A DNA stretch of 25,451 bases from a virus: IMG/VR virus record IMGVR_UViG_3300031851_000161, positions 1-25,451 of that record, one strand, 5' to 3'. Position numbers and translations under genes: made by a program. Each line of letters begins with the position of its first letter. Within the stretch, counting starts at the first letter, position 1. Below, one piece after another: positions 3,626 to 13,472 of the stretch. The notes below the pieces were generated by a model, which ran no database searches, was not told the origin of the DNA, and saw only the letters and a list, made by a program, of their open reading frames with translations.

Positions 3626-4441
3626 TTAGGCTTTGCTAGGTGCTGGCGCTTTTTTATTGCCAGGTACGTTAACATTACCCGTTTTCATGTCTTCTGCTTT
3701 TGCTGAACCGCCAGATGTGTTACCATCTACTTGTCCAACTGGTCCTGCGTCACTTTCGTCCGCACCACCGTCTTTTGCAACTGGTGAATCTTTATCACCA
3801 TCTGCGCCAGGCTTAGCAGTTGCTGGAATAGAATACTCTTCCAACTTTTCTTCTGATTCTTCGTCTAAATCTTCAGTTGACGCTTCTTCTACTGGCTCTT
3901 CTTCAGTTTCATCTGCTTCTTCAACAACTTCTTCAACTGTCTCATCTGCTTCTGCTACTGCTTCTTCCATTTCTGGCTCTTCGATATCTAAATCAATTTC
4001 GCCTTCCATGTCGCCTTCTTCGCCTTCTTCTGATTCTGCTTCATCTTCGCCAGACATAATTTTTTCAAATTCTGCTTCTAGGTCAGATAATGCTGATTCT
4101 AAGTCTTCAACTCTGTCTTCAATTTCTTCAGCAGGTGCTTCTTCATCACTCATTTCTAAGTCATCTTCAGCCTCTTCATCTGAAACATCTTCATCATCAA
4201 AGATTTCTTCTGTTTCGATTTCGTCAGAATCTTCTTCGATATCATCGTTTAAAGATTCGACCTCTTCTGTTTCTTCAATTTCCTCAAGTTCTTCTTCTAC
4301 AACATTGTCGCTTTCGTTTAAAGAATCCTCGTGGATTTGTCGTGCTTGTTCAACAACAAAGTCATGTAAAAGCGATTCCGCTTTTGCTGTCTCTTCGTTG
4401 ATTAACAATTCTAGCACTTGTTCTAGTGTACTTCTTGACAT
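3626..4441 (-). CDS. Acidic prohead core protein, gp68-like
   Basis: 271 residues when started at the ATG complementary to 4439-4441 (MSRSTLEQVLELL), which has an AAGGAG site 8-9 nt upstream; a longer start at 4477 has no such site. Residues 1-45 form a short helical domain (LLINEETAKAESLLHDFVVE), then about 170 residues are dominated by Glu, Asp and Ser, and the last 60 are a Gly/Pro/Ala/Lys-rich tail. Head genes 67 and 68 of T4 occupy this interval between 20 and 21 and encode small internal core proteins, one very acidic. I infer that this is a core or internal protein that fills the prohead and is probably processed by gp21. Sequence similarity to T4 gp68 is not certain. A late promoter TATAAATA lies at 4553-4560. 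Confidence 0.85.
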   Translation of the reverse strand: MSRSTLEQVLELLINEETAKAESLLHDFVVEQARQIHEDSLNESDNVVEEELEEIEETEEVESLNDDIEEDSDEIETEEIFDDEDVSDEEAEDDLEMSDEEAPAEEIEDRVEDLESALSDLEAEFEKIMSGEDEAESEEGEEGDMEGEIDLDIEEPEMEEAVAEADETVEEVVEEADETEEEPVEEASTEDLDEESEEKLEEYSIPATAKPGADGDKDSPVAKDGGADESDAGPVGQVDGNTSGGSAKAEDMKTGNVNVPGNKKAPAPSKA

Positions 4442-4552
4442 TATAAGTCTCCTTAATAATATTTTCTTCATAGCCACTACAATTGCGGCAGGGTTATAGA
4501 AACGAACAAACTAATACTACATAAAATAGTAATAGTGGGTTTCATACACAAG

Positions 4553-6689: not shown

Positions 6690-8708
6690 CTAATTCTCAC
6701 CCAACTGATTTAAAAGTTGTTGAAGTGCGCCCAACGTCTTGTCTAGAGTTAATTTGAGTGAATCATCTAAGGCATTTCTATTATCAGGATTAAGCGCCCG
6801 AGTATTAAGCAGTGTTTGTACAACTGATTCAAACTCTAATTTTCGTGCTTCAATATCAGTTTTTGTGAGTTTGTCCTTATTATCTGTAAGTTGCTTAATC
6901 ATGGCAGCACTTTTGTTAGCAAATGCATCTACTGAATCTTGATTTTTTGTACGGTTGGTGGTGCCTGCCGATTGATTTGTGAACTCAGATGCAGTTATTA
7001 TATCGGCATTATCTGCATTGCCAAGTGATAATATTGTTCCCGAAACCTCAGCAACTTTCAACATCTGTCTTGCAAACCAACTTAGTGTTCTATCAGTTGT
7101 AGTTCCTACATTATTCATAGTATCGATTAAATTTCCACTTGCTTGTAATGAGTCTGCCGCTTGTTCGGCGAATTTTCTCTGTGTTTCTGTTAGAAGTTCC
7201 ATATTTTTAGTAAATCCAGGCATAACATCGTTCATCGCTCTCTCCATCGCATTTGCGGCCTGTAGTTGTGCGTCTCTGAATTTTACAACTGCGGAATCTT
7301 CTCTACCGCCAGCAGATATACCTTTTGAGATATCAGACATATTTTGTGCTAGTTCATTCATTTGTGCCAACTGAACTAAAATTCTTTCATCTGATATTGC
7401 TAATCCTCTTGAGGCTCCTCCACTATAACGTTCTAATTCACGTGAAACAAATTCAGGCATGCTTGTTGCCATAAAACTTTGAAATTGTGAATCACCGCCA
7501 TTTTGTAATTGTGCCGCGGCTTCATTAACAAATTTTATCATTTCCATTCCTAGTGGAGTCTGTGAAGTATCTTGAAATTGACTTGTCAACTGAAACATCT
7601 GGTCAGAACCTGCTCCCAATCTTGCGGCTAACAAGTCTGTTAGTGGATTATCAACACCACCCATCATTTGCATTGCATTTCTAACTGAATCTTGTGTTGC
7701 CTTATCAAGCGTTAATAACATACCCTTTTCAGCAAAGCCTAGGCTATCCTTCAACAAGTTCGCCGCGTCTTCCATTGAAATTTTTAATACATTTGAAGTT
7801 GCTTGAACATTAGACATGAAACTATCCATTCCATCTCTTAATTCTCGGTCAGACCTTCCTTGAAGTTGACCAGCGACACGTAACGTGTCTAAATAATTTC
7901 CTGCAATGCCGGCAACTTGACCGAATTCCATTGCAAATTCTTCCATTAGTCCACCTGGTCCCCTAGCCATACTATTAACAAAGTCTAACGTACTCTTTAC
8001 ACCCAACACGCCAACAGTTTTTGCAAAATCTTTAGTGAATTCTGCGGCCATACCAAAAGTAAATCCAGTATCACTAACTGTTTTTGCTACTGAAATGAAT
8101 CCGTCATTGAGAGAATCTAATCCACCTAATAAACCTGATGTACGAAGTTCTTCTGCAAAATCAAATCTCTGTTCGAATCCGACTTTTGTAGCCTCTTGAA
8201 CAGCCTCTGCCATTCCAAGAACTGAGGCTAATGCCGCCGTCATTTTTTCGTAGCCTCTTGCTTGTTTTTCACCTTCAAGTGTTTGTACTGCCTCTTCTTT
8301 ACTAAGACCGGCTTGCATCAGTTGTTTTAACTGCACTTCTGCTTTTCTTTCTTCTCTGGCATTCTTTACTATTTGGTCAGTCAGTCCATCTACTCCCATT
8401 ACGATACCTTGAAGACCTTTGAGATGTCTACTTAAAACGCCTTGAGTTTGAGTATTCTGGGCTTGTTCCTGCTTTTGGCCTCTAGTGACTTTGACTCCAT
8501 TCTGTCTAAGTTCGTCACCAACTTTCTTAAGTTCTTTTGAAGACAGAGACCCACCACCCTTTACTGCATTGAGTAATTGAATGATTGAAGCATTTTGTGT
8601 CGAAATTTGTTTTAATGTTCCTGCAATTTTCGATGCAGTAGCCTCAGTAGACCACTGGGCAATACTGCCACTTATGCCCGAAATAAAAACATCTTGTTCG
8701 TCTGCCAT
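6690..8708 (-). CDS. Probable tail tape-measure protein
   Basis: 672-residue, mainly helical protein rich in Ala, Gln, Met and Gly with hydrophobic segments, for example residues 155-170 (MTAALASVLGMAEAVQ) and 215-260. Nothing enzymatic is visible. In T4 the tape measure is gp29 (590 aa), an elongated protein inside the tail tube that sets tail length. Size and composition fit, and the divergently encoded neighbours resemble gp26/gp51, which act in the same hub/tape-measure assembly step; the frameshift between them recalls the tape-measure chaperones of other tailed phages. The start at 8708 has AGAGGG about 8 nt upstream, and a late promoter box lies at 8808-8815. A large uncharacterised structural protein is the alternative, as I see no diagnostic gp29 motif. 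Confidence 0.85.
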   Translation of the reverse strand: MADEQDVFISGISGSIAQWSTEATASKIAGTLKQISTQNASIIQLLNAVKGGGSLSSKELKKVGDELRQNGVKVTRGQKQEQAQNTQTQGVLSRHLKGLQGIVMGVDGLTDQIVKNAREERKAEVQLKQLMQAGLSKEEAVQTLEGEKQARGYEKMTAALASVLGMAEAVQEATKVGFEQRFDFAEELRTSGLLGGLDSLNDGFISVAKTVSDTGFTFGMAAEFTKDFAKTVGVLGVKSTLDFVNSMARGPGGLMEEFAMEFGQVAGIAGNYLDTLRVAGQLQGRSDRELRDGMDSFMSNVQATSNVLKISMEDAANLLKDSLGFAEKGMLLTLDKATQDSVRNAMQMMGGVDNPLTDLLAARLGAGSDQMFQLTSQFQDTSQTPLGMEMIKFVNEAAAQLQNGGDSQFQSFMATSMPEFVSRELERYSGGASRGLAISDERILVQLAQMNELAQNMSDISKGISAGGREDSAVVKFRDAQLQAANAMERAMNDVMPGFTKNMELLTETQRKFAEQAADSLQASGNLIDTMNNVGTTTDRTLSWFARQMLKVAEVSGTILSLGNADNADIITASEFTNQSAGTTNRTKNQDSVDAFANKSAAMIKQLTDNKDKLTKTDIEARKLEFESVVQTLLNTRALNPDNRNALDDSLKLTLDKTLGALQQLLNQLGEN

Positions 8709-8754
8709 GAAAACCCTCTAAATTATGTTATAAAACTACGTAGTTATTCTCAAA

Positions 8755-8762
8755 GATAAATA
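8755..8762 (+). promoter_or_regulatory. T4-type late promoter of the gp26-like gene
   Basis: GATAAATA on the plus strand, 66 nt before the gp26-like ATG. It faces the minus-strand late box at 8808-8815, so the two leaders would overlap by roughly 30-45 nt. Confidence 0.5.
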
Positions 8763-8807
8763 ATTAAGATAGTTATGTATATACTTAATTATTAACTTAT
8801 TATACTG

Positions 8808-8815
8808 TATTTATC
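8808..8815 (-). promoter_or_regulatory. T4-type late promoter of the tape-measure gene
   Basis: The minus strand reads GATAAATAC, identical to the boxes before the fibre-like gene, gp48 and gp25. It would give a leader of about 93 nt before the ATG at 8708. Confidence 0.55.
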
Positions 8816-8828
8816 AAAGGACAAACAA

Positions 8829-9677
8829 ATGAACACCAATGAGAACCCATTATCAAAATATTTCCGTAAACCGGGAATATATGTACAAATTCCAACCGGT
8901 GGCAGATTTAATCCAGAAATAGAAAAAACTGTATTGGACGAGTTGCCTATACTTCCGATGACCGCAATTGATGAGATATCAATGCAGAATCCTGATGAAC
9001 TACTTAACGGCGAGGCACTCGTAAACCTCATCAAAAGTTGTGTTCCAGCGATTCCCAATCCAAGAAATCTATGCAATGTTGATGCTGAAATGATATTTCT
9101 TGCAATCAAATATGCAACATATGGCAAAGATGTAGAACACACGCACACTTGTTCTGAATGCAAAGAGAAGGCAGATTACAACATAGATATCAATCATATT
9201 CTTGAAAAGTTTCCAGATATTACTGAAATTCCAGCAATTGAACATGAAGACCTAAAGATATTTGTAACTCCGCCAAAATTAGACAGTCTAACGAGACTGG
9301 CTCTAATTGAAGTAGAACAAGCCCGTATATTAAACAAAATCAAAGAAACAGCAGAAGGCGTTGAAGGTGATGAGGTAGAAATGGCAAAACAATTTGCTAT
9401 TAGTTTCAGAAAAGTATCAAGACAGAACATAGACCTATTAATGAGTTCTATCGATAGAATCGAAACACCTACCGAAGCCATTATTGACAAAAATGTCATT
9501 ATGGAGTTTATGGAAAATGTTCCAACCAACATTGTTTCTAAAGTAAACGAGGCAGTGGGTGTTGCAACACCAAATTTAAAGGACATATCAACGTTCGAAT
9601 TTACTTGTGAATCATGTAGTCACAAAGAAAAAGTAACGTTTGAATTGAATCCTGTAAATTTTTCCTCGGCTGGTTAA
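8829..9677 (+). CDS. gp26: Baseplate hub assembly protein, gp26-like, zinc-ribbon cysteines
   Basis: 282-residue protein assigned to the T4 gp26 family, which acts in baseplate hub assembly and tape-measure loading. Support: the EMIFLAIKYATYGKDVE segment (residues 87-103), resembling the conserved gp26 core, and the position next to a gp51-like reading frame as in T4 (26, 51). Two CxxC pairs, Cys108/Cys111 and Cys260/Cys263, could form a zinc ribbon. It is longer than T4 gp26 (208 aa). The start has AAAGGA 8 nt upstream. The last codons contain an AAATTTT slippery site (9656-9662), so a fraction of ribosomes should make a longer fusion into the gp51-like frame. It is transcribed divergently from the tape-measure gene. 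Confidence 0.88.
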   Translation: MNTNENPLSKYFRKPGIYVQIPTGGRFNPEIEKTVLDELPILPMTAIDEISMQNPDELLNGEALVNLIKSCVPAIPNPRNLCNVDAEMIFLAIKYATYGKDVEHTHTCSECKEKADYNIDINHILEKFPDITEIPAIEHEDLKIFVTPPKLDSLTRLALIEVEQARILNKIKETAEGVEGDEVEMAKQFAISFRKVSRQNIDLLMSSIDRIETPTEAIIDKNVIMEFMENVPTNIVSKVNEAVGVATPNLKDISTFEFTCESCSHKEKVTFELNPVNFSSAG

Positions 9678-9688
9678 AGACTGCCAGC
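9656..9688 (+). promoter_or_regulatory. Programmed -1 ribosomal frameshift signal
   Basis: In the gp26-like frame the codons GTA AAT TTT TCC contain the heptamer A-AAT-TTT (9656-9662), which fits XXXYYYZ. After a spacer of 6 nt, GCTGG (9669-9673) and CCAGC (9684-9688) pair into a 5-bp GC-rich hairpin whose 10-nt loop contains the zero-frame stop TAA (9675-9677). The -1 frame is open from 9644 to 9895 and contains no ATG until about 9771, so its first 36 codons can only be read by frameshifting. Confidence 0.75.
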
Positions 9689-9895
9689 GACACTGAAGTA
9701 ACAGAGAGACAAGAGTCTTATAAGAAATCACTTGAATCTCTACACAAAAATCTGTACAAACTGTCTTGGTATATGCGAGGTGGCGTCAGTATATCTGAAA
9801 TCCATGATATGCCCGCTAATCATATAAAATATCTAAATGAGATAGTAAGTGACAACTTTGAGTTGAGCAAATCTGCTGGCGTACCTATTTTATAA
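9662..9895 (+). CDS. gp51: gp51-like baseplate hub assembly domain, read by -1 frameshift
   Basis: Reading frame at -1 to the gp26-like gene, giving 77 residues after the shift (FLGWLKTASDTEVTERQESY at the start, ending AGVPIL). It is helical and includes SLHKNLYKLSWYMRGGVSIS and IHDMPANHIKYLNEIV. Small size, position after gene 26 and this helical pattern suggest T4 gp51 (hub assembly factor). No ATG, GTG or TTG start lies upstream of residue 37 in this frame, so the product is most likely a 355-residue gp26-gp51 fusion made at low frequency, comparable to the G/GT tape-measure chaperones of lambda-like phages. An internal ATG near 9771 would give only about 41 residues. It was not in the ORF list because it lacks its own start. 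Confidence 0.75.
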   Translation, partial: FLGWLKTASDTEVTERQESYKKSLESLHKNLYKLSWYMRGGVSISEIHDMPANHIKYLNEIVSDNFELSKSAGVPIL

Positions 9896-9922
9896 AAAAT
9901 ACAAAAAAAGTTACAAAAAGGG

Positions 9923-9951
9923 TTGACATCTCTTTTTCATTATGTTAGTAT
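9923..9951 (+). promoter_or_regulatory. Sigma70-like promoter of the structured RNA
   Basis: TTGACA (9923-9928), 17-bp spacer, TGT and -10 TAGTAT (9946-9951). Transcription would start near 9957 and run into the folded RNA region and on to the endonuclease gene. GTTGAC (9922-9927) and GTCAAC (9953-9958) form an inverted repeat flanking the promoter. Confidence 0.65.
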
Positions 9952-9956
9952 GGTCA

Positions 9957-10440
9957 ACATAACTAATACAAATCGATTCAAAAACCATTTTTAATTCTAA
10001 TACAACTCCCCCAAAGGCTAATAATGATTCTAATAAAACAATACATAGTGGAACTGTTAGTCGGGTTGCCGACTCGGGATTGAGGGCGTATATTATACAT
10101 ACGTTCGGATAAGTTGGGTGAACTCCGACACTGCTTCTCGTAAACCACACAGACTGTTTGTAACATAAAACATTTGTTACTCTAAAGGTAATGAATGACT
10201 AGTATTTACCGTACAGAAATGTACACACCGCTGGTAGATTAAAAATACTACCAACTTTGATTAAGTTTTATTCTATGTGGATTAATCAAAGTGCCGTTGG
10301 GTCGAAAGACGCAATACTAAGTTAAGAGGGAATCGCCAACCGACCTCGCCGTAACTAGCGGCTAACTTAGACATGGAATCTGATGAACTTGACAAGTATC
10401 AGCGATTGCCCCATGGATGGGCAATTGTGTCTTCCAAACT
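9957..10440 (+). ncRNA. Candidate large structured non-coding RNA
   Basis: About 480 nt without a credible gene, preceded by a good promoter. Perfect complementary pairs include 10059-10064/10069-10074, 10112-10115/10121-10124, 10160-10165/10175-10180, 10211-10215/10220-10224 with a GAAA tetraloop, 10232-10237/10248-10253, 10255-10264/10282-10291 (10 bp), and 10301-10303/10308-10310 (second GAAA loop). 10317-10324/10363-10370 encloses 10326-10329/10344-10347 and 10348-10351/10359-10362, a three-way junction. 10374-10378/10432-10436 encloses a bulged hairpin 10380-10402 and 10405-10411/10419-10425, a second junction. Base composition is richer in G and C than the flanks. I recognise no known class (not tRNA, tmRNA, RNase P RNA, or a clear group I intron). 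The function is unknown; comparison with phage-borne ornate RNAs such as GOLLD and ROOL is worthwhile. Confidence 0.65.
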
Positions 10441-10491
10441 GACAAGCGAATAAACAATAAATAATATTTAAATGGAATAAACAAATATCAA

Positions 10492-10551
10492 GGAAATCTT
10501 CTTTGAGTGGAACGAAAAGAAATTTCCGAAGATATTAGGTCTTTAGACCTA
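10492..10551 (+). promoter_or_regulatory. Two hairpins in the leader of the endonuclease gene
   Basis: GGAAAT-c-TTCTTT (10492-10504) pairs with AAAGAAATTTCC (10516-10527), a 12-bp stem with one bulged C and an 11-nt loop. It is followed by TAGGTC-TTTA-GACCTA (10536-10551), a 6-bp stem ending 16 nt before the ATG at 10568. Neither has a T-run, so they are not classical terminators. Position suggests translational or RNA-processing control of the endonuclease, or the 3' domain of the upstream RNA. The interval 10441-10491 shows only an AATAAATA box (10456-10463), a weak late-promoter candidate. Confidence 0.5.
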
Positions 10552-10567
10552 TTAAAATGAGAACACC

Positions 10568-11005
10568 ATGAGTGAATGGACATATAAAAATAAAGTTGTA
10601 AATGAATTACCTGAGAATGTTGAGGGATTTGTATATCTTATTACGAATCTTACAAATAACAAAAAGTACGTAGGTAAGAAGTTAGCACGATTTAAGACTA
10701 CTAAACCACCTCTTAAAGGAAGAAAGAATAAAAGACGTGGTTATAAAGAAAGTGATTGGAGAACCTATTGGGGTTCTTCTGACCATTTAAATGCGGACGT
10801 AAAAAAATTAGGTCCCGATAAATTTTCACGTGAAATTCTACACTATTGCCCGAGTCGAGGCGCATTAAGTTACGTAGAAGCCAAAGAACAGTTTGACCGT
10901 AGAGTACTTGAAACAGATGAGTACTATAATGGTATTATCAATGTACGAGTGGGAAGTTCGAAAATTCTTACTGAGTATCTAAACAGCGTTAAGAAGAAAG
11001 TATAG
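10568..11005 (+). CDS. Free-standing GIY-YIG endonuclease, SegE-like
   Basis: 145-residue homing-type endonuclease. The GIY-YIG core is clear: FVYLITNLTNNKKYVGKK (residues 21-38) gives the two strand motifs in V-Y-L and Y-V-G form. A conserved ESDWRTYWGSS block (61-71), DKFSREIL (82-89) and a C-terminal EAKEQF...YYNGIINVRVG segment (103-127) follow; Arg64 and the Glu of EAKEQF are likely catalytic. The pattern is that of the SegE-type family common in T4-like marine phages, which cut phage DNA and spread themselves or adjacent DNA. No intron is evident, so it is free-standing like T4 seg genes. The ribosome binding site is weak (TGAGAA). The 3' end overlaps by 17 bp the convergent membrane-protein gene. 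Confidence 0.9.
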   Translation: MSEWTYKNKVVNELPENVEGFVYLITNLTNNKKYVGKKLARFKTTKPPLKGRKNKRRGYKESDWRTYWGSSDHLNADVKKLGPDKFSREILHYCPSRGALSYVEAKEQFDRRVLETDEYYNGIINVRVGSSKILTEYLNSVKKKV

Positions 11006-11243
11006 GCGCTAACAGCCACTGATAGATTCCTATCCCATCAATCAATAAGAAAAACATATTCTGTACAATCAGAGGCTTATCTTTAAGTATCAAAAAAACG
11101 TAGATAGCAATTATATGTCCTGTTGCAAATAAAGGAAATGCATATTTGGATTCTGGAATATTCAAAGATATTAAAGTACCAGCACATACAAACATGAATG
11201 TTGCTGACCATTTTATTTTTTCTATTGTTCGTGGGGATAACAT
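10989..11243 (-). CDS. Small membrane protein with three predicted helices
   Basis: 84 residues when started at the ATG complementary to 11241-11243 (MLSPRTIEKIKW), which has GAGAG 7 nt upstream. A longer reading from a GTG at 11375 would run through a terminator hairpin and is unlikely. Three hydrophobic segments are visible: about residues 13-29 (SATFMFVCAGTLISLNI), 34-53 (YAFPLFATGHIIAIYVFLIL) and 59-80. Small polytopic proteins of this pattern occur in marine T4-like phages, loosely resembling YgjV/PnuC-like membrane proteins; I cannot assign a function. It lies just downstream of a terminator, so expression may need read-through or a CTAAATA box in the leader (around 11270-11276). It is convergent with the endonuclease. 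Confidence 0.7.
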   Translation of the reverse strand: MLSPRTIEKIKWSATFMFVCAGTLISLNIPESKYAFPLFATGHIIAIYVFLILKDKPLIVQNMFFLLIDGIGIYQWLLAPILSS

Positions 11244-11280
11244 TATTCTACTCTCTAAACCGTGATATCTATATTTAGGT

Positions 11281-11316
11281 AAAAGAAAAACCCTGCACCA
11301 TTTCTGATACAGGGTT
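11281..11316 (-). terminator. Rho-independent terminator or attenuator
   Basis: On the minus strand AACCCTG (complement of 11310-11316) pairs with CAGGGTT (complement of 11289-11295) across a 14-nt loop, followed by TTTTTCTTTT. It would end transcripts of the gp55 operon and of the short RNA starting near 11450. The membrane-protein ATG lies 38 nt beyond it. Confidence 0.75.
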
Positions 11317-11355
11317 CTCCGCCTTACTCCTTTTTGTGCTTTTTTCAGTGGTACG

Positions 11356-11436
11356 TTAAGGTCTAACCCACCCACTCTCTTTAAGAGAGCAAAGCAACAA
11401 GTACCAGTGTCGATGAGAGAGGTTTAGAGGAGACAT
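11356..11436 (-). CDS. Possible 26-residue leader peptide
   Basis: An ATG about 15 nt after the predicted transcript start opens a 26-codon frame (MSPLNLSHRHWYLLLCSLKE and six more residues) that ends 40 nt before the terminator stem. It has no strong ribosome binding site. Its position is that of an attenuation leader peptide, but the composition (Leu, His, Trp, Ser) shows no single-amino-acid run. It may be fortuitous. Confidence 0.2.
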   Translation of the reverse strand: MSPLNLSHRHWYLLLCSLKESGWVRP

Positions 11437-11456
11437 AGGCACCCGTTGATTATATA

Positions 11457-11485
11457 ATATTAACATACTGGACTATCAAAGTCAA
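11457..11485 (-). promoter_or_regulatory. Sigma70-like promoter of the small minus-strand RNA
   Basis: TTGACT (complement of 11480-11485), 17-bp spacer ending TATGT, then -10 TAATAT (complement of 11457-11462). The TG before the hexamer is an extended -10 element. It has the same design as the gp20 and gp55 promoters. Confidence 0.65.
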
Positions 11486-11503
11486 GCGATTTTGTAACTT
11501 TTT

Positions 11504-11680
11504 TTACATATTGTTCTTTTTTTCTTGGATTTCTGCTCTACGTACCTTTGTAAGTTTTCCAATATCGCCTAGTGCTTTTCTGGCACGAGCCGCTGAGGCT
11601 TTTACACCTTTTTCTTCAAACTTGGCATTTTCTGCCTGATATGTTTCAATTGCTTCCATAATTTGTGCGTCTGTACTCAT
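11504..11680 (-). CDS. Small basic histone-H1-like protein
   Basis: 58-residue protein. It starts MSTDAQIMEAIETYQAENAK, then a Lys/Ala/Arg-rich half (EKGVKASAARARKALGDIGK, LTKVRRAEIQEKKNNM). The helical, Ala-Arg-Lys-rich C-terminal half resembles small bacterial H1-like DNA-binding proteins; short proteins with this ARARKALxxIGKL pattern are widespread in T4-like cyanophages. DNA binding or nucleoid remodelling is therefore plausible but unproven. The ATG (complement of 11678-11680) has AAGGAG 8 nt upstream, embedded in the last codons of gp46, whose stop lies 4 nt away, so translation is probably coupled. It is the last gene of the gp55-gp47-SDR-gp46 operon; no terminator follows until 11316. 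Confidence 0.85.
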   Translation of the reverse strand: MSTDAQIMEAIETYQAENAKFEEKGVKASAARARKALGDIGKLTKVRRAEIQEKKNNM

Positions 11681-11684
11681 ATTA

Positions 11685-13472
11685 TTACTCCTTTATTGTG
11701 GTGGTAGTTTCCTCCTCGTGAGAAAAACTTGTAAAACCATTCTCTTTTATTACATTTAGAACGCTTTCGACACGCCCTTGCAATTCGTCTTTGTGTGAAA
11801 TCAAATACACACTTCTATTTCCATCCCTTGCCATCTTCTTAAGAACAGCAAGTGATGATTCGACACCATTGGTGTCCATTCCGCTATCTATCAATTCATC
11901 AACAAATAACACGTTAATTGTGCTGTATAATGACTCGAAAATGTCACGGAAACTCCAACTTAAACCTAAAATAAGTCTGTTTCTTTCACCTCTACTTAGG
12001 TTATCAAAGTCTAAATCACGACCTAATTCAGTAATTTCTACTGTTAAATCGCTCTGGAATACAACATCATGTGGTAATCCCAACTTATCTAAGTAATGTG
12101 CTAGGCGAGAATTTAAGTAACTTAAGTTCTGGTCTATAATCTTTTTACGAATAAAACTATCTTTATTAGTTAGTAGTTTCAATAAGAATTCTTGGTGTTC
12201 CTGTAAAGAAACCAACGAATTCATGTGTCCGTAGTCTACTTCTTCCAAGGCACTATCACGCATATCTTCTATTTGTTCTGCGTATGGGTCCTCAGTGTTC
12301 TTGTTTAGTTCTATTTGTTCTGCTAATTTCTCTACAGAAGATTGATGTTCGTATGCATCAGATAATGTACTATAGAACGTAGCAGGTTTTTTACCAATAT
12401 CTCCAATACTTTCGATTAGAGTGTTATGTTCGGTTAACGAAGTTTCATTAGTAGACAGTTGTTCTGTCGCTTCGGTCTTCTGTGTACTTTTGTTTGTTAG
12501 TATCTCACCTTGTTTCTCATCGTGTATTTCTTGACCACACGCATGGCATTTATGTTCTTCGATTAGTTTTATTTCATTATCTAATCTTTCTATTAGTGCA
12601 GTTTGTTTTGTATTGTCAGCCTCGATACTATTAATCCAAGAAGTAGCAGTAGATTTAGCCGCCAAATTTTCATTATATGTAACTAACAAAGCATGGTTCT
12701 TTAATTCACCTTCAATGTCTACATGCGACAATGATTCAAGTGCGGACTCTAATGTTTCTAAGTCTGTTTGTTGTTTGTTACTCCAAACTTTCTGTCTACG
12801 TTCGATATCTTTAATACTTTTTAGAATACGAGCATTTGTGTCTTCTTTAGCCTTAAGTGAATATTCTTCTTCTTTGATTTGTTCTTTTGTGTTCTTTGAA
12901 ATCTCTTTAAGTGCATCTGCTTTACGAGAGAGTTCTGTAATTCCTAGAAGTTCTTCGATAAGTTCACGTTGGTCACCAGCACGTAATGCCAGAAATGGCT
13001 CAGTGTATGTATTCAGTGCAACAATGTGTTTGAACATTGCATGAGAAAGACCAATGATACTCTCTACTTCAAATTGGGTCATTCGCATTTCACCTTGACC
13101 AGCATTCTCTACATCATTATCACCAAGTTCCATGCCATCACGCATGAAATGAAATACATTAGGAGAACGACCACGTTCAATGCGATATTCATTTCCGTTG
13201 TATGTGAAATCAACAGTAACCATCATGCCTTTGCCGTTAGTCTTGTTAATTAGATTGTTCTGCTTAATGTTTGTAAGTGCTTTACCATATAGTCCATACG
13301 ATAACGCATTGATTAAAGTGGTCTTACCAGTTCCATTACGAGAACCATCCCCACCCAAATCGATGTTGTTACCCAAGACTAAAGTCAGTTCATCTTGGTT
13401 TAATGTTACAGCCTGAGTAACATTACCCACACTCATAAAATTTCTTATTGTTATATTCTTAATTATTAACAA
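11685..13472 (-). CDS. gp46: Recombination endonuclease subunit gp46 (Rad50/SbcC-like)
   Basis: 595-residue SMC-type ATPase that pairs with gp47 to resect DNA ends for recombination-dependent replication. Walker A is GSRNGTGKT (residues 43-51). Two long coiled coils flank a zinc hook CHAC (Cys309, Cys312). The ABC signature is LSRGE (492-496, Arg in place of the usual Gly), Walker B VLFVDE (521-526), and a switch His in YLISHKDEL (556-564). Length is close to T4 gp46 (560 aa). The start is a TTG: GAGAGG lies 7 nt upstream in the end of the SDR gene, and starting at the next ATG (Met13) would remove the first beta strand. It overlaps nothing but is 2 nt from the SDR stop, indicating translational coupling. 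Confidence 0.96.
   Translation of the reverse strand: MLIIKNITIRNFMSVGNVTQAVTLNQDELTLVLGNNIDLGGDGSRNGTGKTTLINALSYGLYGKALTNIKQNNLINKTNGKGMMVTVDFTYNGNEYRIERGRSPNVFHFMRDGMELGDNDVENAGQGEMRMTQFEVESIIGLSHAMFKHIVALNTYTEPFLALRAGDQRELIEELLGITELSRKADALKEISKNTKEQIKEEEYSLKAKEDTNARILKSIKDIERRQKVWSNKQQTDLETLESALESLSHVDIEGELKNHALLVTYNENLAAKSTATSWINSIEADNTKQTALIERLDNEIKLIEEHKCHACGQEIHDEKQGEILTNKSTQKTEATEQLSTNETSLTEHNTLIESIGDIGKKPATFYSTLSDAYEHQSSVEKLAEQIELNKNTEDPYAEQIEDMRDSALEEVDYGHMNSLVSLQEHQEFLLKLLTNKDSFIRKKIIDQNLSYLNSRLAHYLDKLGLPHDVVFQSDLTVEITELGRDLDFDNLSRGERNRLILGLSWSFRDIFESLYSTINVLFVDELIDSGMDTNGVESSLAVLKKMARDGNRSVYLISHKDELQGRVESVLNVIKENGFTSFSHEEETTTTIKE

Follow-up and report, generated by a model that had tools for sequence, protein, structure and literature searches.

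We identified a conserved, structured RNA of ~600 nt (about 9957–10550, + strand) in the window, the whole 25,451-nt stretch of DNA analyzed here, which lies in a virus record of 25,451 bases. The way its sequence varies among relatives leaves little doubt that this is a conserved functional RNA. We consider it probable that it represents a new structured noncoding RNA family of a marine clade of jumbo T4-like phages, most likely free-standing and equipped with a partner-binding leader. That it acts in trans by binding a partner is a more tentative proposal.

The window represents part of a T4-like phage genome and encodes gp23, gp20, a gp26-type baseplate protein, gp46, a late sigma factor, and ClpP. 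Its closest isolated relatives, judged by protein, are the jumbo phages PA5oct and its kin, Atu_ph07, and Phosso. The RNA lies inside the gap 9896–10567, which extends from a small ORF 3′ of gp26 up to the SegE gene at 10568, and the locus follows the order baseplate gp26, nuclease, gp46. Wherever a contig extends far enough, the RNA is found 3′ of gp26. An initial annotation had pointed to this 672-bp gap, its promoter and its stems, all of which are present. The span it gave for the RNA, 9957–10440, is indeed structured, but its end was placed too early, as the conserved hairpins P17 and P18 lie beyond 10440 (Table 1).

Homologues were gathered with two gp26 protein queries, two exact DNA patterns, and two wider patterns, the first pattern also matching three unrelated contigs (L044, L057, and L071). 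Relatives exist in number: more than 100 viral loci were recovered, comprising 121 full-length loci in 43 clusters at 97%, although several loci may share one contig. They occupy the same genomic place down to about 47% gp26 identity. Relatives found through gp26 carry the entire region at 75–100% DNA identity, with invariant noncoding blocks, and each of five long contigs of 161–343 kb holds one copy of the RNA. A search with the resolvase as query returned 80 loci; the RNA is present in 35 of 35 from the window's clade, and the other 45 (gp26 identity about 26–35% where seen) showed no detectable copy. DNA similarity searches of isolate phages with three family members gave only short, chance-like matches, and an exact-pattern search of bacterial genomes found no copy.

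The evidence for a functional fold comes from comparison of these homologues. The single-sequence folding energy of 9957–10440 is only mildly below that of shuffled sequences (z = −2.2 on the + strand and −1.5 on the − strand), so the earlier claim of order far beyond chance is not carried by energy alone; it is borne out by the homologues. Our structure model comprises 100 pairs in 15 helices on alignment A1 of 42 sequences, in which 92.1% of 4123 cells are paired and 43 of the 100 pairs show changes on both sides. Double-change cells number 368, compared with 129 ± 9 after shuffling and 42–121 with slid partners, and the score is 0.287, compared with 0.149 and 0.05–0.09, respectively. One measure, the number of further pair types, does not stand out (98 versus 98.4 in shuffles). 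Because the sequences are related, compensatory events were also counted on a tree from unpaired columns, with shifts of the partners by at most 4 columns as the control, yielding 94 double events versus 3–31. Because the alignment was consulted in drawing the model, the percentage paired is biased in its favor relative to the slid versions, but this hardly explains the number of compensatory events. G-U cells (313) far exceed A-C cells (35) in the 42 sequences, and the RNA is therefore the + strand. Covariation is thus strong and above controls in diverged homologues, and it extends to most of the stems initially proposed.

Within the 5′ domain, CGGGATTG, CTTCTCG, and P1 are invariant, and P2 and P4 have undergone 18 and 8 double compensatory events on the tree, respectively, without a break. 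An alternative pairing between CGGGA (10075–10079) and TCTCG (10136–10140) is itself invariant and so offers no covariation. The outer half of P6 never breaks, and its inner half is partly misaligned or broken; P9 is upheld in part, with its base alone well kept. In the pseudoknot, the pair 10300–10336 alternates between G-C and A-U, with 11 switches along the tree and not one break. Two GAAA tetraloops had been reported. The one at 10304–10307 is genuine, capping a covarying stem and taking the form GNAA across relatives, while the one at 10216–10219 is not a conserved tetraloop and forms a portion of a hairpin loop found in the window's clade only. Two three-way junctions had likewise been proposed, and the first (10317–10370) is confirmed by covariation in P11, P12, and P14, the last without any break. 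For the second (10374–10436), the inner helix P16 holds, but the closing helix 10374–10378/10432–10436 pairs in the window and is not upheld in the alignment of relatives. P17 is upheld in part, as both arms are distally truncated in L010 and L039, leaving a shorter hairpin.

The repeats around P16 vary in step between genomes (TGACAAG, TATCAAG, GAACAAG, GGACAGA, and GGCAAGT); pairing of both with a common third strand fits some lineages only. A hammerhead reading of CUGAUGA at 10380 was rejected, since the motif has no GAAA partner and is not conserved.

Table 1. Coordinates of the RNA, its structural elements, and flanking features in the window
Feature	Position	Strand	Basis
Sigma-70-like promoter: TTGACA 9923–9928, 17-nt spacer, TG-T-TAGTAT 9943–9951	9923–9951	+	Promoter scan
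A-rich leader, CTAATA repeats at 9963, 9997, 10018, 10030	9957–10045	+	Repeat count
19-codon ORF MILIKQYIVELLVGLPTRD, then stop	10024–10083	+	Frame shared by about 36 of 43 clusters
5′ domain closed by P1 (10048–10051/10145–10148), with P2 (10054–10077) and P4 (10113–10129)	10048–10148	+	Alignment, covariation
Hairpin P6, CTCTAAAGG loop region	10171–10197	+	13 double events
Hairpin P8	10232–10253	+	4 double events
Hairpin P9, distal half variable	10254–10292	+	4 double events, 34 breaks
Pseudoknot GTTGR (10296–10300)/YCAAC (10336–10340)	10296–10340	+	100% paired in 42 sequences
Hairpin P10, GNAA tetraloop (GAAA 10304–10307)	10301–10310	+	8 double events, 0 breaks
Three-way junction P11/P12–P13/P14	10317–10370	+	Double events: P11 4, P12 4, P14 7
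Direct repeats TGACAAG (10390–10396, 10440–10446) flanking P16	10390–10446	+	Alignments
Hairpin P16	10403–10427	+	97% of cells paired; changes mainly one-sided G-U
Hairpin P17	10492–10527	+	10 double events, 21 breaks
3′ hairpin P18, AGGTCTTTAGACCT	10537–10550	+	Near-invariant; GGGTCTTTAGACCC in L077
SegE-type GIY-YIG endonuclease gene (neighbor, outside the RNA)	10568–11005	+	PF19835, E 2e-35

A scan of 8500–12000 agrees with the earlier mention of a good promoter to the extent that it finds a promoter-like site at 9923–9951. This site shares the top score on the + strand and alone among the sites there has a TG extension, making an RNA start near 9957 reasonable. The site is conserved in alignments across the window's clade, where the RNA is probably transcribed as a unit from its own sigma-70-type promoter. 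In more distant clades a separate promoter is not evident, and the small ORF 3′ of gp26 abuts the leader. The motif CTAAYA occurs in the leader in 3–7 copies in all 43 clusters; the 95 nt preceding the core contain 4.2 copies on average compared with 0.44 expected, an approximately tenfold enrichment. CTAATA was considered as a late promoter and rejected: the window has two TATAAATA sites, one preceding the portal gene and the other the gene at 3626–4477, and none in the leader. We hypothesize that, through its CTAAYA sites, the mostly unpaired leader could bind several molecules of a phage- or host-encoded protein, next to a compact core that would consist of the 5′ domain, the pseudoknot with its GNRA hairpin, the three-way junction, and the 3′ hairpins.

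The gene downstream of the RNA is not constant. SegE follows directly in many lineages, a PDDEXK_15/RusA-like resolvase takes its place in others (L077, L094, L095, L121, L122, L125, L100, L109, L133, L128, and L106), and in L066 and L048 the gene for a 402-aa protein stands between the RNA and SegE. This 402-aa protein contains cysteine motifs and, by eye, is possibly radical-SAM-like. The RNA is thus tied to no single downstream gene or pathway, its neighbor being SegE, PDDEXK_15, or another protein, two of the three being nucleases. A special link with the adjacent homing endonuclease is not supported, and we regard that enzyme as incidental because other lineages carry the PDDEXK resolvase or a further gene after the same RNA. 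We propose that the RNA most likely acts free-standing rather than as the leader of the next gene, since it outlives the exchange of downstream genes, has a promoter-like site in one clade, and combines a compact core with a mostly unpaired, repeat-bearing leader. Counting against this proposal, a gene encoded on the same strand, in most lineages one for a nuclease, invariably stands just downstream of the RNA, an arrangement that fits a cis-acting leader too.

The main alternative, to which we give appreciable but minor weight, is therefore that of a long cis-regulatory leader of the gene directly downstream, perhaps with translation of the 19-codon ORF as the sensing step. In the contigs examined, a same-strand gene, usually a nuclease, begins shortly 3′ of P18. 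The small ORF, which ends just 3′ of P2, is open in the same frame with an ATG in about 36 of the 43 clusters, and L103 and L115, although their core lacks one base, keep a frame that reaches the same stop. However, the same RNA precedes two unrelated nuclease families and the third gene of L066/L048, and a terminator scan finds none between the RNA and the downstream gene. It is also far larger than most known leaders. Moreover, the frame is absent or shifted in L033, L039, L051, L121, L141, L144, and L149, where the core nucleotides are kept, and these nucleotides are unchanged even where the frame changes (L141, L144, and L149), so that the constraint is primarily on nucleotides. The earlier statement that no credible ORF exists fits the lack of a strictly conserved reading frame but needs qualification, since the 19-codon ORF, open in most, though not all, relatives, may be translated.

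These observations also bear on the improbable reading of a dual-function RNA whose main product is a conserved peptide of 15–24 residues (..IVELLVGLPTRD). The frame is open in most clusters and its start codon often lies in an ATGRCTAATAT context. Nevertheless, the residues track the helix constraint (VGLPT, SGLPF, IGLPI, and NGLPF), invariance extends to many synonymous positions, and six lineages (L033, L121, L051, L141, L144, and L149) lack the frame.

It is very unlikely that the RNA is a HEARO-like or intron-like element linked to the homing endonuclease, be it a self-splicing intron, a ribozyme, or a mobile RNA. Such an element would account for the SegE-type GIY-YIG gene downstream, yet group I and II introns, HEARO, and ribozymes give no match in Rfam, SegE is dispensable to the RNA, and the syntenic place is constant, with the RNA at 35 of 35 resolvase loci and no empty site seen in the clade. 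A fixed RNA–nuclease partnership like that of HEARO or OMEGA is likewise contradicted by the loci, in which the nuclease is exchanged and the RNA stays. Conservation at the DNA level, for example as an origin, packaging, or homing site, would suit a long intergenic region near the recombination genes gp46/gp47 and the resolvase, but is scarcely credible given a nine-to-one ratio of G-U to A-C pairs and a GNRA loop on a covarying stem.

The free-standing RNA has no counterpart among known families. Searching Rfam 15 (4227 families) with the window RNA gave no match at gathering thresholds and, at E ≤ 10, none covering the RNA core, with only weak matches at the edges of the searched stretch; at E ≤ 1 the RNAs of L077, L078, L039, and L094 gave no match. 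The initial annotation recognized no class, and in Rfam 15 GOLLD, ROOL, OLE, HEARO, IMES, group I/II introns, RNase P, and tmRNA are indeed without a match. The window RNA therefore looks like a new RNA class. The kinship with GOLLD, ROOL, or IMES raised there as one option finds no backing in Rfam, and ARAGORN detects no tRNA in the window, which accordingly has no tRNA island. GOLLD and ROOL are nonetheless the nearest in kind, though not relatives. GOLLD is a large, richly structured, phage-encoded RNA of unknown function (PMC12286853), a description that the window RNA shares, but many GOLLD members exceed 800 nt, compared with about 600 nt here, and homology was not found. ROOL, with a 659-nt example, pseudoknots, phage carriage, and no known protein partner (PMC12286853), resembles the window RNA in its size, pseudoknots, and carriage by phages. 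The setting differs, the window RNA lying at the gp26–nuclease–gp46 locus and not at a tRNA island. GOLLD and ROOL are often, though not always, near tRNA islands, and both feature homo-oligomeric RNA cages. Phages bearing large RNAs of unknown function are already known, and the novelty lies in the RNA family. To the few large structured phage RNAs, GOLLD and ROOL, whose roles are unknown, this RNA adds a family that covaries with unusual clarity, its pseudoknot included, keeps a constant place in the genome, and has a leader that is a candidate for single-stranded binding.

More distant jumbo phages contain a second conserved noncoding region, which we call family B (L190–L196, L198, L201, L204, L205, L222, and L234). 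It is located between the resolvase and gp26, just 3′ of the PDDEXK_15 gene (e.g., L198:4500–4880), and shows compensatory change in 32 of 59 predicted pairs in nine sequences, with no Rfam match. Like the window RNA, family B adjoins the same PDDEXK_15 nuclease on its gp26 side and contains a GTTGG strand and a CCAACCG segment. In contrast, it measures 350–450 nt and comes after the nuclease gene rather than before it, and model R1 gave no significant match to it with filters off. Beside the same nuclease, PA5oct (L088:5840–6700) and Phosso (L089:6300–7190) carry strongly folding 0.9-kb stretches with z-scores of −4.1 and −4.0, respectively (20 shuffles each), in which annotated ORFs are absent or tiny. 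Neither model R1 nor R2 found a match in PA5oct, Phosso, or Atu_ph07, one 16.5-bit R1 hit in Atu_ph07 being taken as chance. It is conceivable, though doubtful, that a single ancient RNA, fixed beside gp26 and the PDDEXK nuclease, has diverged into the window RNA, family B, and the PA5oct and Phosso gaps. Such common descent would reveal an overlooked general RNA component of jumbo T4-like phages, and, should the gaps in PA5oct (Pseudomonas) and Phosso (Sinorhizobium) be related, these cultured phages would make its function testable at once.

A second probable RNA was observed on the − strand of the window, at 11457–11285. It has a similar promoter (TTGACT, 17-nt spacer, TAATAT; 11485–11457, − strand) and a segment, TGTCTCCTCTMAACCTCTCTCA, that is near-invariant in some thirty relatives and is followed by a terminator-like hairpin (11320–11285, − strand). 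Just 5′ of the probable start of the next gene (11242) lies GGTTTAGAG, to which the segment CTCTAAACC is complementary. From these features it looks like a small RNA or a regulated leader with an anti-Shine-Dalgarno-like seed.
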